Below, in pieces: positions 15,302 through 30,773 of a stretch of DNA of 46,647 nt; position 1 is the first letter of the stretch; every line of letters begins with the position of its first letter. The notes beneath the pieces are model-generated. The model had not been told where the DNA came from and made no database searches. It worked only from the letters and a program-made list of their open reading frames with translations. Made by a program: the position numbers and the translations under genes. This stretch comes from Acetobacteraceae bacterium (GTDB lineage Bacteria > Pseudomonadota > Alphaproteobacteria > Acetobacterales > Acetobacteraceae): positions 1-46,647 of the forward strand of contig JASHQG010000097.1 of NCBI GenBank assembly GCA_030037665.1. The letters are read 5' to 3'.

Positions 15302-17107
15302 ATGACCGCGATCGAACCGATTCCGTACGCTGACGCGAAAATTCGCGGCATTCTGTCCACCGTGCGGACCATTGCCATGGTCGGCGCCTCAACCAATTGG
15401 AACCGGCCGAGTTACTTCGTCATGAAGTACCTGCAAGGTAAGGGCTATCGCGTCATTCCGGTGAACCCCGCTGCGGCGGGTCAGCAACTGCAGGGCGAGC
15501 ACGTCTATGCTTCCCTGCGCGACATTCCCGACAAGATCGACATGGTCGACATCTTTCGCCCCTCCGACCAGGTTCCGCCAATTATTGAAGATGCCATTGC
15601 TGTCGGTGCGAAAGTCGTGTGGATGCAGCTTGGCATTCGCAACGACGAAGCAGCGGCGCGGGCCGAGGCTGCTGGCATCGAAGTGATCATGAACCGCTGC
15701 CCAAAGATTGAATTTGGTCGCCTGGGAGGCGAGCTGTCGTGGAGCGGTGTCAACTCCAACATCATTCGTAACCGCGCGCCCGAGGCGCCGACCGAGCGCC
15801 ACGCAAAGCCGCGCCCGATGCCGACGCACAATGTCAGCTATGGCTTCGACACCCGCGCGATTCATGCCGGCGCCGCGCCGGACGCCACGACCGGTGCGCG
15901 CACAACGCCGATCTTTCAGACCACCGCTTATGTTTTCGACGACGTCGATCACGCCGCATCACTCTTCAACCTCCATAATTTCGGCTACATTTACACACGC
16001 CTGACCAATCCGACCGTCGCGGTACTGGAAGAACGCGTCGCTAATCTGGAAGGCGGCCGCGCCGCGGTCGCGGCGGCATCTGGCCACGCGGCGCAGTTCC
16101 TGGTGTTCGCGACGATGATGGAGCCGGGCGATGAATTTGTCGCTTCGCGTAATTTGTATGGAGGGTCGCTTACACAATTTGGCCTGTCGTTCAAGAAGCT
16201 TGGCTGGGCCTGCCACTTTGTCGATCCGACCGATCCGGAGAACTTCAGGCGCGCGGTGACGCCGCGCTGCAAGGCGATCTTCATCGAAAGCCTGGCCAAT
16301 CCGGGCGGCATCATCGTCGATCTGGAGGCGGTAGCCAAGGTGGCACATGATGCCGGCATCCCGCTGATCGTCGATAACACGCTGGCAACCCCGTATTTGT
16401 GCCGACCAATCGAGTATGGCGCCGACATCGTCACCCACTCGACGACGAAGTTTCTTGATGGGCACGGCAATTCGCTCGGCGGCATTGTGGTCGAAAGCGG
16501 TAAGTTCGATTGGGCGCAAGGGGGCAAGTTCCCGGCTCTGACCGAGCCCGAACCTGCTTATCACGGATTGCGCTTTTACGAAAATTTCGGTGACTTTGCC
16601 TTCACCACGAAAGCACGCGCCGTTGCGCTACGCGACTTCGGCCCAACGCTGGCGCCGATGAACGCATTCCTGACGATCACCGGCATCGAAACCCTGCATG
16701 TACGCATGGAACGTCACTGCACGAATGCGCAGAAGGTGGCGGAGTTCCTCGCGGCGCACCCGCGCGTCGTCTGGGTGTCTTACGCGGGCCTGGAATCGAG
16801 CCCGTATTATACGCTGGCGAAACGATACCTGCCGAAAGGTGCCGGTGCGGTCTTCACCTTCGGCGTTAAGGGCGGTTACGATGCGGGCGTGAGGCTGGTG
16901 GAAACCGTGCGGCTGTTCTCGCATCTCGCAAATATTGGTGATACGAGAAGTCTGATCCTTCATCCCGCGTCGACAACACACCGACAGCTGACGGACGAGC
17001 AGCGGCTTGCGGCCGGTGCGGGGCCCGATGTCATACGGCTCTCGATTGGTTTGGAGACGGCGGCGGATCTGATCGCCGATCTGGATCAGGCGCTGGCCAG
17101 CTCATGA
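15302..17107 (+). CDS. Fusion: CoA-binding domain protein + O-acetylhomoserine/Cys-Met metabolism PLP enzyme
   Basis: N-terminus IAMVGASTNWNRPSYFVMKYLQGKGYRVIPVNP (YccU-like CoA-binding); from about 15818 SYGFDTRAIHAGAAPDATTGARTTPIFQTTAYVF...ADIVTHSTTKFLDGHGNSLGG (PLP lysine). Confidence 0.92.
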   Translation: MTAIEPIPYADAKIRGILSTVRTIAMVGASTNWNRPSYFVMKYLQGKGYRVIPVNPAAAGQQLQGEHVYASLRDIPDKIDMVDIFRPSDQVPPIIEDAIAVGAKVVWMQLGIRNDEAAARAEAAGIEVIMNRCPKIEFGRLGGELSWSGVNSNIIRNRAPEAPTERHAKPRPMPTHNVSYGFDTRAIHAGAAPDATTGARTTPIFQTTAYVFDDVDHAASLFNLHNFGYIYTRLTNPTVAVLEERVANLEGGRAAVAAASGHAAQFLVFATMMEPGDEFVASRNLYGGSLTQFGLSFKKLGWACHFVDPTDPENFRRAVTPRCKAIFIESLANPGGIIVDLEAVAKVAHDAGIPLIVDNTLATPYLCRPIEYGADIVTHSTTKFLDGHGNSLGGIVVESGKFDWAQGGKFPALTEPEPAYHGLRFYENFGDFAFTTKARAVALRDFGPTLAPMNAFLTITGIETLHVRMERHCTNAQKVAEFLAAHPRVVWVSYAGLESSPYYTLAKRYLPKGAGAVFTFGVKGGYDAGVRLVETVRLFSHLANIGDTRSLILHPASTTHRQLTDEQRLAAGAGPDVIRLSIGLETAADLIADLDQALASS

Positions 17108-17182: not shown

Positions 17183-18052
17183 TTATTCAACCACCACTTC
17201 AATCGGTCCATCCGCATCCGTCACTGACAGCGGCGTGAAGCCCGCCGCATCACCATCTGCCTGTGCGGGGATCGCCTCGTTACCGACTACTTCGACCCGC
17301 TGCGCCCGCATGTGCGTTACGCCAGGGGCGCGACCGAGCATGTTGACCGGCAGCGCTGCACCGTACAGCAGCATCGCCCCGGGGCCACGATGCGAGAAGA
17401 GGACGACGGAGAATCCAGGCTCGGCCGGGCGCGCATCCGGCGCCAGCAGGTAATGTCCTCCGTAAAACCGGCCCTTGCTGACGATGACATTTGCTACCTG
17501 CATCTCCTGACCGTCCACGCGCACGGTGATGGGCGGATAGCGGTAGCGTATTGACTCTCGCAGCGAGTGCAGCACGTAGGCGCCACGGCCGAAGATTTGC
17601 TTCAGCGGCACCTGCAAGCGATGCACAACCTGCGCATCGAATCCGACGCTCAGCATCTGCACGAATACACGCTTGTCGTTGCCTGCGCACATCACGCCAG
17701 GCCAGACCCGACGGGTGCGGCGAAATGCCAGAGCGGCCGCCACGGCGCGCGGCGTGAACGGCAACGATAATTCGTGTGCCAACACGTTGGCGCTGCCGAG
17801 CGGAATCACACCGAGCGGCACTTTTGTCCCCGCGACCACGCTGGCGACTTCGGCAATCGTGCCGTCGCCGCCGGCAGCCACGACCATGGGGGCACCGCCG
17901 GCAACCGCTTCGCGTGCCAGTGCCGCGGCGTGACCGGCGCAATGTGTCTGCGCGACGTCGAGCCGCACGCCGTTTGCGACGAGCACGTCGAGTACCCGCC
18001 ACAGCAAGGCGGCACGACGACGCCCGGCGACCGGATTGAAGACGATTACCAT
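17183..18052 (-). CDS. Diacylglycerol kinase family lipid kinase (ORF extends to GTG at 18103)
   Basis: MVIVFNPVAGRRRAALLWRVLD, VVAAGGDGTIAEVASVV, GVIPLGSANVLAHEL. Confidence 0.9.
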   Translation of the reverse strand: MVIVFNPVAGRRRAALLWRVLDVLVANGVRLDVAQTHCAGHAAALAREAVAGGAPMVVAAGGDGTIAEVASVVAGTKVPLGVIPLGSANVLAHELSLPFTPRAVAAALAFRRTRRVWPGVMCAGNDKRVFVQMLSVGFDAQVVHRLQVPLKQIFGRGAYVLHSLRESIRYRYPPITVRVDGQEMQVANVIVSKGRFYGGHYLLAPDARPAEPGFSVVLFSHRGPGAMLLYGAALPVNMLGRAPGVTHMRAQRVEVVGNEAIPAQADGDAAGFTPLSVTDADGPIEVVVE

Positions 18053-18142
18053 GGCCGAACGTACGGCCCTAAGAGAATCGGGTAAATCGGCGGTTTCCTG
18101 CACTGCGAAGTTGCCTTGCTGCCAGGATTCTGCGTCGCTTTG

Positions 18143-18160
18143 ATGACGTTACGATGACTG
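18143..18160 (-). promoter_or_regulatory. PHO-box-like direct repeat
   Basis: Minus strand CAGTCAT-CGTA-ACGTCAT; two heptamers with 11-bp period, 11/14 match to CTGTCAT-N4-CTGTCAT. Confidence 0.35.
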
Positions 18161-18237
18161 CGGCGTTACTTTCACTAAGAGATGTAAAATCCCGTCGCGT
18201 CACGAAATGTTAATCCGCAAACCGTGCGAATCACCGT

Positions 18238-19068
18238 ATGCGCTCGCCTCGCATGAACGCGTTATCCACAACGGGCGGGCGGCCGGCTTACCGCAGCGTG
18301 TTCATCTCCGACACGCACCTGGGCACCCGTGGCTGCCGCTCCGATTTTCTTGCTGACTTTTTGCGGCGTGCGTCCTGCGAGTATCTCTACCTTGTCGGCG
18401 ATATCATCGACGGATGGCGACTGCGTAAGTCCTGGTACTGGGACGAAAATCATGACGACGTATTGCGGCAGATCGTCTGTCATGCGCGCGGCGGCACGCA
18501 GGTCACCTACATTCCGGGTAACCATGACGAGATGTTCCGGGCCTGGCTGCCGCTCGGGCTGGAAATCTCTGGCATCAAGCTGCGGCAGGAGGCGGTGCAT
18601 GTCACCGCGGACGGTACGCGCCTCTTGGTACTGCACGGCGACGAATTCGACTCAGTGGTGCGCTACGCGAAGGTCCTCGCCCTGCTTGGCGATTGGGCTT
18701 ATACGCTCGCGTTGACGGTGAACCGTTATTTCAATGCATGTCGCCGGCGGCTCGGTTATCCTTACTGGTCGCTGTCGGCCTGGCTGAAGCGGCAGGTCAA
18801 GGAAGCGGTGAAGGCGATAGACCGCTTTGAATATGCCCTCGCACACGAAGCAGAGCGGCGTGGATTCGATGGCGTGGTGTGCGGGCACATCCACCAGGCG
18901 CAGATGCGCAAAGTGGGGCGCGTTTGGTACATCAACGATGGCGACTGGGTGGAGAGCTGCACGGCGCTGGTGGAACATCATGACGGGCGGCTCGAGCTGA
19001 TCGATTGGGCCGCGTTGAACAGGCTGTCGTTCTTTGCGCCGAGGGCGCGGATGACGCAAACTGCCTGA
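18238..19068 (+). CDS. Metallophosphoesterase, LpxH/PlcP-like
   Basis: SVFISDTHLGTRGCRSDFLADFL, YLVGDIIDGWRL, YIPGNHDEMFR, LHGDEFD, VVCGHIHQAQM, YINDGDWVESCTALVE. Confidence 0.9.
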   Translation: MRSPRMNALSTTGGRPAYRSVFISDTHLGTRGCRSDFLADFLRRASCEYLYLVGDIIDGWRLRKSWYWDENHDDVLRQIVCHARGGTQVTYIPGNHDEMFRAWLPLGLEISGIKLRQEAVHVTADGTRLLVLHGDEFDSVVRYAKVLALLGDWAYTLALTVNRYFNACRRRLGYPYWSLSAWLKRQVKEAVKAIDRFEYALAHEAERRGFDGVVCGHIHQAQMRKVGRVWYINDGDWVESCTALVEHHDGRLELIDWAALNRLSFFAPRARMTQTA

Positions 19069-19102
19069 CACCGGTGTTGGAGCGGCTGCAGGAACTGATC
19101 GG

Positions 19103-20143
19103 ATGCTGCCGCCCGCTGCTTTGCATCGCATCATGATTGTGACAGATGCCTGGACGCCGCAGGTGAACGGCGTCGTGCGCACGCTCAGTATTGTCGCCGA
19201 TGAACTCCGGGCTATGGGCCACGTGGTCGCGGTGATCGGCCCAGACCAGTTCCGTACCGTACCGTGTCCGACCTATCCAGACATCGCACTGTCGCTGCTG
19301 CCGCGGCGACGCCTCGTGCGCAAGATCGAGACTTTCAACCCTGACGCGTTACACATCGCCACCGAGGGGCCACTCGGCCTTGCCGCGCGCAGCTGGGCCC
19401 GCCGGCACGGCTTCGCATTCACCACCGCGTTTCATACGCGGTTCGCTGAATACATCAACGCTCGGATGCATATTCCGACCCGTCCGATCTACGCTTGGAT
19501 GCGACGGTTCCACGGTGCCGGCGAGGGCATCATGGTGGCGACCGAATCGCTTCGCACCGAGCTGGCGCGGCGCGGCTTCCAAAATATCCGTCCCTGGACG
19601 CGCGGTGTGGACCTCGATTTGTTCAAGCCGGAACCGCGTGAGGATTGGGGTCTGCCGAGACCGGTGTTTCTGTACGTTGGCCGGGTCGCCGTGGAAAAGA
19701 ACATCGACGCCTTCCTCGATCTCGATCTACCCGGCTCGAAGGTGGTGGTGGGCGGCGGACCACAGCTGGAGCAGCTGCGCCGGTCGTATCCGGGCGTGGT
19801 GTTCGTCGGCCCGCGCTACGGGGAGGCATTGGCACGTTCTTATGCCGGCGCGGATGTGTTCGTATTTCCCTCGCTGACCGACACGTTTGGGTTGGTGATT
19901 CTGGAGGCGCTGGCGTGCGGCACGCCAGTCGCTGCTTACCCGGTCACTGGACCGATGGATGTCATGGCCAATGCGAACGGCACGATCGGGGCCATGAATG
20001 CCGATCTGCGCACGGCGGCTTTGGAGGCGCTGAGTGCCGATCGCACCGCGTGTCGCGCGCACGCTGAAGGCTATTCATGGCGTGCCTGCGCGGAGATCTT
20101 TCTGTCGAACCTTGTGCCAATCAGGGCGGGTGAGGCGGCCTGA
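19103..20143 (+). CDS. GT4-family glycosyltransferase (Agt/MgtA-like)
   Basis: IMIVTDAWTPQVNGVVRTLSIVADELRAMGHVVAVIGPDQF; YVGRVAVEKNIDAFLDL; FVFPSLTDTFGLVILEALACGTPVAAYPVTGP. Confidence 0.93.
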   Translation: MLPPAALHRIMIVTDAWTPQVNGVVRTLSIVADELRAMGHVVAVIGPDQFRTVPCPTYPDIALSLLPRRRLVRKIETFNPDALHIATEGPLGLAARSWARRHGFAFTTAFHTRFAEYINARMHIPTRPIYAWMRRFHGAGEGIMVATESLRTELARRGFQNIRPWTRGVDLDLFKPEPREDWGLPRPVFLYVGRVAVEKNIDAFLDLDLPGSKVVVGGGPQLEQLRRSYPGVVFVGPRYGEALARSYAGADVFVFPSLTDTFGLVILEALACGTPVAAYPVTGPMDVMANANGTIGAMNADLRTAALEALSADRTACRAHAEGYSWRACAEIFLSNLVPIRAGEAA

Positions 20144-28680: not shown

Positions 28681-28919
28681 TTATTTCCAAATTGGCATAG
28701 GAAGCTGTTCGCGCACGAACAGCCGTGACAGAAGCTTGACACACCGCTTCTGCGAGCGCATATACGCGGCGTCGTCAACAATCAGGAGGTGCATGAACAG
28801 CATGACTCCACCCGGGATGTTCGGGGTTGTCGACCAGCTTGGCATCGGCAGTGATCCCCAGCAGTCCAAGCATTAGCCGGGCGTATCGAGCCCGAGCGCG
28901 AAGTTGATCTTCGCATTTT

Positions 28920-29438: not shown

Positions 29439-30773
29439 ATGATGCAGATGGCTGCACATTTCGACCTGCTGATCCGCAACGGCACCTGCGTGTTGCCCTG
29501 GGGTCTGGAAGCGACGGATGTGGGCGTGCGCGACGGGTGGATCGTGGCGTTGGGCGTGGCTGCCGAAGCGACCGCCGAGCAGGTGATCGACGCGCGTGGC
29601 CTGCACGTGCTGCCCGGGCTGATCGATCCGCACGTGCATCTGCGCGATCCGGGCGACAAGGCAGTGGAGAGCATCCCCACTGGCACCCGTGCCGCCGTGC
29701 TGGGCGGGCTTGCCGCGGTATTCGACATGCCCAACACGGCACCATCGATCACCGACGTCGACAAGCTCGCGTGGAAACAGGAATACGCCGCGCGCGAGGC
29801 CTGGTGCGACATGGGCCTCTATGTCGGTGGCACCAAGCAGAACATTCCCGAGCTGGCGAGGCTGGAACTCGGCCGCGGCGTTTGCGGCATCAAGATCTTC
29901 GCGGGCAGCTCAACCGGAGACCTCCTGGTGGAGGACGATGAGCATCTGGAGCGCGTTATGCGCTCCGGCCGCCGCCGCATCGCCTATCATTCCGAGGACG
30001 AATACCGGCTGCAGGACCGTAAGCACATGTTCCATCGCGGTGACGCGCATCGCCGTCACATGGAATGGCGCGACGCGGAATGTGCCTTCCTTGGCACGCG
30101 ACGGCTGATGGCGCTGGCCCGCGCGACGGGGCGGCCGGCGCATATTCTCCACGTCTCCACCGCTGAAGAACTCGACTACCTGAAGGGCTTCCGGGACATC
30201 GCCACCTGCGAGGTGCTGGTCAACCATCTCACCCAGGTCGCGCCCGACTGCTATGACCGGCTGGAGGGATTCGGCGTGATGAATCCGCCGATCCGCGGCC
30301 CTGAAGTACAAGAGGCATGCTGGCGGGCCATCAACGACGGCACGGTGGACACCGTCGGCTCCGATCACGCGCCACATTCGCGCGAGAAAAAGCTGCTGCC
30401 CTGGCCGGATTGCCCCGCGGGCCTCACAGGCGTGCAGACGATCGTTCCGGTCATGCTGAACCATGTCAACGCGGGACGCCTGCCGCTGACGCGGCTGGTC
30501 GACCTGCTGTGCGCCGGCCCGGCCAGGGTCTATGGCATGGTCGGCAAGGGCCGGCTGGCCGCCGGCTACGATGCCGACTTCACGCTCGTCGACATGAAGA
30601 AGCAGCGCCGGATCGAGGAATCCTGGATTGTCTCGCCCTGCGGCTGGACGCCGTTTGCCGGAATGGACATCACTGGCTGGCCCGTCGCCACGATCATTCG
30701 CGGCCGCACGGTGATGCGAGAGGATGAAGTGCTCGGCACGCCGCGCGGGAGGCTGGTGAAGTTCATCGGCTGA
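29439..30773 (+). CDS. Dihydroorotase / cyclic amidohydrolase family
   Basis: DARGLHVLPGLIDPHVHLRDPGDKAVESIPTGTRAAVLGGLAAVFDMPNTAPSITD; VGSDHAPHSREKK. Confidence 0.93.
   Translation: MMQMAAHFDLLIRNGTCVLPWGLEATDVGVRDGWIVALGVAAEATAEQVIDARGLHVLPGLIDPHVHLRDPGDKAVESIPTGTRAAVLGGLAAVFDMPNTAPSITDVDKLAWKQEYAAREAWCDMGLYVGGTKQNIPELARLELGRGVCGIKIFAGSSTGDLLVEDDEHLERVMRSGRRRIAYHSEDEYRLQDRKHMFHRGDAHRRHMEWRDAECAFLGTRRLMALARATGRPAHILHVSTAEELDYLKGFRDIATCEVLVNHLTQVAPDCYDRLEGFGVMNPPIRGPEVQEACWRAINDGTVDTVGSDHAPHSREKKLLPWPDCPAGLTGVQTIVPVMLNHVNAGRLPLTRLVDLLCAGPARVYGMVGKGRLAAGYDADFTLVDMKKQRRIEESWIVSPCGWTPFAGMDITGWPVATIIRGRTVMREDEVLGTPRGRLVKFIG

Follow-up and report, generated by a model that had tools for sequence, protein, structure and literature searches.

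Genes of the locus and their conservation

The window, by which we mean the whole analysed stretch of 46,647 nucleotides, comes from an Acetobacteraceae genome, and the nearest named relatives of its phosphoesterase are likewise Acetobacteraceae proteins, for example from Acidisphaera rubrifaciens (83%). The source genome, in which the window is contig C656, comprises 6.46 Mb in 803 contigs, with 96.7% completeness and 6.3% contamination. Three neighbouring genes are the subject of this analysis:

17183..18103, minus strand: dgk, DgkB/YegS-type lipid kinase (Pfam DAGK_cat 3.8e-26 and YegS_C; Foldseek DgkB 2qvl/2qv7)
18238..19068, plus strand: plcP, intracellular phospholipase C-like metallophosphoesterase (Pfam Metallophos; identity to PlcPs; tree)
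19103..20143, plus strand: agt, GT4 diacylglycerol glycosyltransferase, as predicted (Pfam GT4/Glycos_transf_1; Agt1 identity; motifs)

These open reading frames were confirmed at the coordinates and on the strands that an earlier note on this DNA had given, together with its description of a kinase gene divergent from a unit of phosphoesterase and glycosyltransferase. Pfam domains were found for all three genes. The gap between dgk and plcP is 134 bp long and agt starts 34 nt downstream of plcP. The true start of plcP is probably the ATG at 18253 and not 18238: this ATG is conserved in most of the relatives inspected, and the conserved ATGAACGC-like start there makes it the most likely one. 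For dgk we infer that the ATG at 18052 is probably the true start and not 18103, because the relatives align from 18052 and residues 1-14 of the kinase model are of low confidence. Next to this locus, at 15302-17107, a single ORF encodes a CoA-binding domain fused to an O-acetylhomoserine sulfhydrylase.

The linkage of the three genes was surveyed in 80 named loci of relatives. Of the named relatives that could be assessed, 78 of 79 have agt downstream of plcP, and 66 of 78 have a dgk divergent from plcP. Acidisphaera rubrifaciens carries all three genes, whereas in Acidiphilium no dgk is linked to plcP. Chance adjacency of the three genes was rejected, since the linkage is kept in named relatives. 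The plcP-agt pair is conserved over the class- and phylum-level loci examined and is nearly always kept outside Acetobacteraceae.

Assignment of the phosphoesterase and the glycosyltransferase

The phosphoesterase shares 51% identity with the PlcP of S. meliloti and 54% with that of P. aeruginosa, compared with 23% for E. coli LpxH. We built an IQ-TREE tree from 27 PlcP-like sequences, including the S. meliloti and P. aeruginosa PlcPs, and six LpxHs. PlcP and LpxH form separate clades with support of 100/100 each and the window protein falls inside the PlcP clade, apart from LpxH, as the earlier note had expected when it favoured PlcP over a true LpxH. The Thioclava homologue forms a long branch in this tree and its placement is unsure. 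All 27 PlcP-like sequences carry GNHD, which in the window protein is part of GNHDEM, whereas all six LpxHs carry GNRD. The PlcP metal ligands D25, H27, D55, N95, H133, H217 and H219 are all invariant. The YWSLSAWLKRQVKEAV-type region, which the earlier note had read in this protein, is present at residues 176-191. A comparison of 21 PlcPs, with the S. meliloti and P. aeruginosa proteins among them, shows no variation at its positions Y176, S178, S180, K184, K188, A190 and V191.

Automatic annotation would name this protein LpxH, the lipid A UDP-2,3-diacylglucosamine hydrolase. Public records give its homologues that name, there are weak NCBIfam matches, and the nearest solved folds are LpxH. 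These structures all being LpxH, the fold comparison does not discriminate between the two families. Against the LpxH model TIGR01854, with its cut-off of 190.35 bits, the window phosphoesterase scores 29 bits; the S. meliloti and P. aeruginosa PlcPs, with 38.9 and 44.5 bits, also lie far under the cut-off. The search for a separate lpxH or lpxI in the source genome, proposed in the earlier note, found LpxI encoded elsewhere and no match to LpxH at an E-value of 0.001. The LpxI gene is split over contigs C46 and C220, which share 142 bp, and likely comes from the same organism as the window; this is likely rather than proved because the assembly carries some contamination. Only one PlcP-like gene was found among the 11 metallophosphoesterase matches of the genome. 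By its model score, the missing LpxH match in the genome and the tree, to which the GNHD motif and the presence of LpxI can be added, an identity as true LpxH is contradicted; it was rejected and we give it next to no credence.

The PlcP anchors were taken from a plasmid collection, with one S. meliloti record and one P. aeruginosa plasmid copy. The S. meliloti anchor gene adjoins AHL synthase and LuxR regulator genes and is presumably SMc00171, judging from the gene order, while the P. aeruginosa anchor is followed by agt. The two anchors share 47% identity, in line with the published value of 46% between PA3219 and the PlcP of S. meliloti (PMC8528852). The record CP090106.1, labelled as S. 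meliloti pSymB, has a length of 3.7 Mb and AHL synthase/LuxR genes beside plcP, and is probably a mislabelled chromosome. Several other records of the plasmid collection are also chromosome-sized.

The glycosyltransferase, called Agt-like in the earlier note, shares 51% identity with Agt1 of P. aeruginosa. The GTcp/Agt group is described as having the donor-binding motifs GRVAXEKN and FPSXTDTFG and a His-Asp dyad, with Asp in place of the usual Glu (PMC8231724). The window protein has GRVAVEKN at 193-200, FPSLTDTFG at 255-263 and a His111/Asp260 dyad, and the functional residues listed in PMC8231724, mapped by motif, are all present. It matches the characterised GTcp/Agt group, and is predicted to transfer glucose and glucuronic acid to diacylglycerol (DAG). 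The GT4 family is very broad, its members act on many different acceptors, and NCBIfam assigns nothing above cut-off to the protein, so that another acceptor, for example a cell-surface glycan precursor, might be used and the pairing with plcP be incidental. We consider this very unlikely, given the conservation of the motifs, including the Asp for Glu, and of all mapped residues, and a pairing with plcP that is near universal across the examined loci.

Predicted Pho boxes in the shared promoter

The phosphate response that the earlier note proposed for the cluster is backed, from the sequence alone, by predicted Pho boxes in the shared promoter. A Pho-box matrix was built from 30 Acetobacteraceae promoters of pstS, a classical PhoB target, and from no other promoters. 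It has the consensus CTGTCATCGAAGCTTCAT, in agreement with the Pho box known from the literature, CTGTCATNNNNCTGTCAT (PMC8528852). All 93,260 window positions on both strands were ranked with this matrix. The intergenic region contains the following elements:

18143..18171, core 18143-18160, minus strand: predicted dgk-directed Pho box (score 11.9, rank 1/93,260)
18197..18214, plus strand: predicted plcP-directed Pho box GCGTCACGAAATGTTAAT (score 9.0, rank 3/93,260)
18235..18239, plus strand: putative -10 element CGTAT, 20 nt past the plcP box

The dgk-directed box consists of three units spaced 11 bp, AAGTAACGCCG-CAGTCATCGTA-ACGTCAT, and this unit pattern is kept in relatives. For the plcP-directed box the family consensus is cGTCATgcAA.CTTCAC, and the box of the window scores under the family mean (9.0 vs 13.5). 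The cgTaT of the putative -10 element is kept at a fixed spacing from the plcP box across 71 aligned promoters. The second-best Pho-like site of the window, at 28723-28740 on the plus strand with a score of 10.3, lies about 700 bp upstream of an amidohydrolase gene (29439-30773) and is probably a chance match.

At a score of at least 6, the plcP-directed box is found in 59 of the 66 relatives with a divergent dgk and in 11 of the 13 without. The dgk-directed box is found in 29 of 66 and 0 of 13, respectively (Fisher p=0.0015), and at a score of at least 0 in 51 of 66 vs 1 of 13 (p=3.5e-6); both p-values overstate the significance, because the relatives are related and not independent. Shuffling led to an expectation of about 1 per box type in the 66 dgk-linked relatives, against the 59 and 29 observed. 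The density of Pho sites is 6.9 per kb within the gap vs 0.047 per kb in the remainder of the loci. By these shuffle and in-locus controls, noise was rejected as the source of the matches. The matrix is family-specific and performs less well outside Acetobacteraceae.

Similar direct-repeat sites are common to PhoB-type regulators, and the genome has many OmpR-family or receiver-domain proteins, with 51 matches to the PhoB model, none above cut-off. The intergenic repeats could thus be the sites of another OmpR-family regulator. We regard this as highly improbable, as pstS promoters were the source of the matrix and its consensus fits the known Pho box. Neither the PhoB nor the PhoU model reached its cut-off in the fragmented source genome. 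Four PstS-like genes were found there, on contigs C676, C131, C385 and C535, and the one on C676 has a clear predicted Pho box, CTCTCATCCAACCTTCATCAAACTGCAAT, upstream. At the locus itself, the boxes are correctly oriented upstream of both units, and we infer from them PhoB binding and the direction of regulation.

The divergent kinase and the proposed lipid remodelling system

The kinase combines a DAGK_cat domain, with the motif GGDGT, and a YegS C-terminal domain, both above the Pfam cut-off; GGDGT is invariant. By sequence and fold it groups with DgkB, YegS and BmrU, and its top Foldseek matches are DgkB 2qvl and 2qv7. With S. aureus DgkB (2qv7) it shares the fold, the GGDGT motif and the two-domain layout, but the identity is only about 20%, Asp216 is replaced, and GTVNDFG of DgkB is GSANVLA in the window kinase. 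Asp216, which we take to be the catalytic residue and general base of DgkB, aligns with Glu228, at a position that is variable in the linked kinases. The linked kinases have a G(T/S)ANVLA motif without the Asp of the classical N-D. With GTANVLA, and mostly without an equivalent of Asp216, the plcP-linked kinases may form a distinct subgroup of lipid kinases. No integral-membrane DgkA (PF01219) was found in a search of the source genome, so the linked kinase may serve as the main DAG kinase. Its context points to DAG as the most likely substrate. Recycling of DAG by the kinase, which the earlier note suggested, is plausible, and the predicted Pho box adds to this suggestion.

Taken as a whole, the cluster is likely to be a system for remodelling the membrane under phosphate starvation. 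We are highly confident in the PlcP-Agt part, and lean, with a more modest degree of confidence, towards a co-induced DAG kinase as the role of the third protein. At low Pi, PhoB would bind the shared promoter at both Pho boxes, which are separate sites. The plcP-directed box would drive plcP-agt, and PlcP would then cleave phospholipids into DAG and a phospho-headgroup, the phosphate of which could be reused. Onto this DAG, Agt would transfer glucose or glucuronic acid, so that glycolipids without phosphorus are formed. The second box would drive the divergent kinase. The most likely role of this enzyme is to convert surplus DAG into phosphatidic acid, which would limit the build-up of DAG and return acyl chains to lipid synthesis.

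What speaks against this explanation is that the re-phosphorylation of DAG looks wasteful while phosphate is being saved. PlcP-Agt could stand as described while the kinase acts on another lipid, such as a sphingoid base or ceramide, or while PhoB represses the kinase and so spares the re-phosphorylation of DAG. Neither Asp216 of DgkB nor the N-D aspartate is conserved, and the query TM-scores of the kinase model are 0.76-0.81 for SphK1 vs 0.73-0.76 for DgkB. By E-value, however, the best Foldseek matches are of the DgkB/YegS types, as are the sequence matches, and the genomic partners of the kinase produce and consume DAG. In orientation and position, the dgk box resembles an activating PhoB site, which favours, as a prediction from the promoter, activation over repression. 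In P. putida BIRD-1, a Pi-responsive DagK rises together with PlcP under Pi depletion and is described as PHO-dependent (PMC5082522). We therefore consider a kinase that does not recycle DAG unlikely, though a serious alternative to the co-induced DAG kinase.

Remodelling by PlcP and Agt is already known (PMC9239053, PMC8528852, PMC4796936). In Methylosinus trichosporium OB3b (PMC9239053) and in P. aeruginosa PA3219-PA3218 (PMC8528852), plcP likewise lies directly upstream of a GT4 agt gene; for the latter an upstream Pho box is reported, and the window proteins are 51-54% identical to its products. Compared with these operons the window adds a divergent DgkB/YegS-type kinase with its own predicted Pho box in the shared promoter. 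SAR11 and other marine bacteria, in the type 2 context of PMC4796936, also have plcP followed by agt with predicted Pho boxes, but unlike in the window, no divergent lipid kinase is described in that paper's section on plcP contexts. The Pi-responsive DagK of P. putida is known too and, like the kinase predicted here, ties a DAG-kinase-type gene to the Pi response with PlcP. The passages considered in PMC5082522 describe neither a linkage to plcP nor the kinase type, whereas the window kinase is divergently linked and of the DgkB/YegS type. We found no plcP-linked diacylglycerol kinase in the limited open-licence literature. As far as this literature shows, the divergent kinase with its own predicted Pho box, conserved across Acetobacteraceae, is new, and dgk is probably a PhoB-controlled addition to PlcP-Agt lipid remodelling.

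Phosphate-saving lipid remodelling has been studied most in marine bacteria, rhizobia, methanotrophs and pseudomonads, and would here be extended to Acetobacteraceae, for which no report of it was found in the open-licence literature. The analysis also corrects a common misannotation, the LpxH label for PlcP. That the kinase is apparently co-regulated prompts the question why DAG should be re-phosphorylated while phosphate is saved. A further reading, possible rather than probable, is that Acetobacteraceae, like several other families of Alphaproteobacteria, have a dedicated lipid kinase other than DgkA, which PhoB drives together with PlcP-Agt. Such a kinase would form a regulated branch point at which the DAG made by PlcP is divided between glycolipid on one side and phosphatidic acid, or some other phosphorylated lipid if the kinase is atypical, on the other. 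Outside Acetobacteraceae, a DAGK_cat gene in opposite orientation was found upstream of plcP in 11 of the 38 loci examined, and several further families of Alphaproteobacteria have a similarly placed kinase next to plcP.
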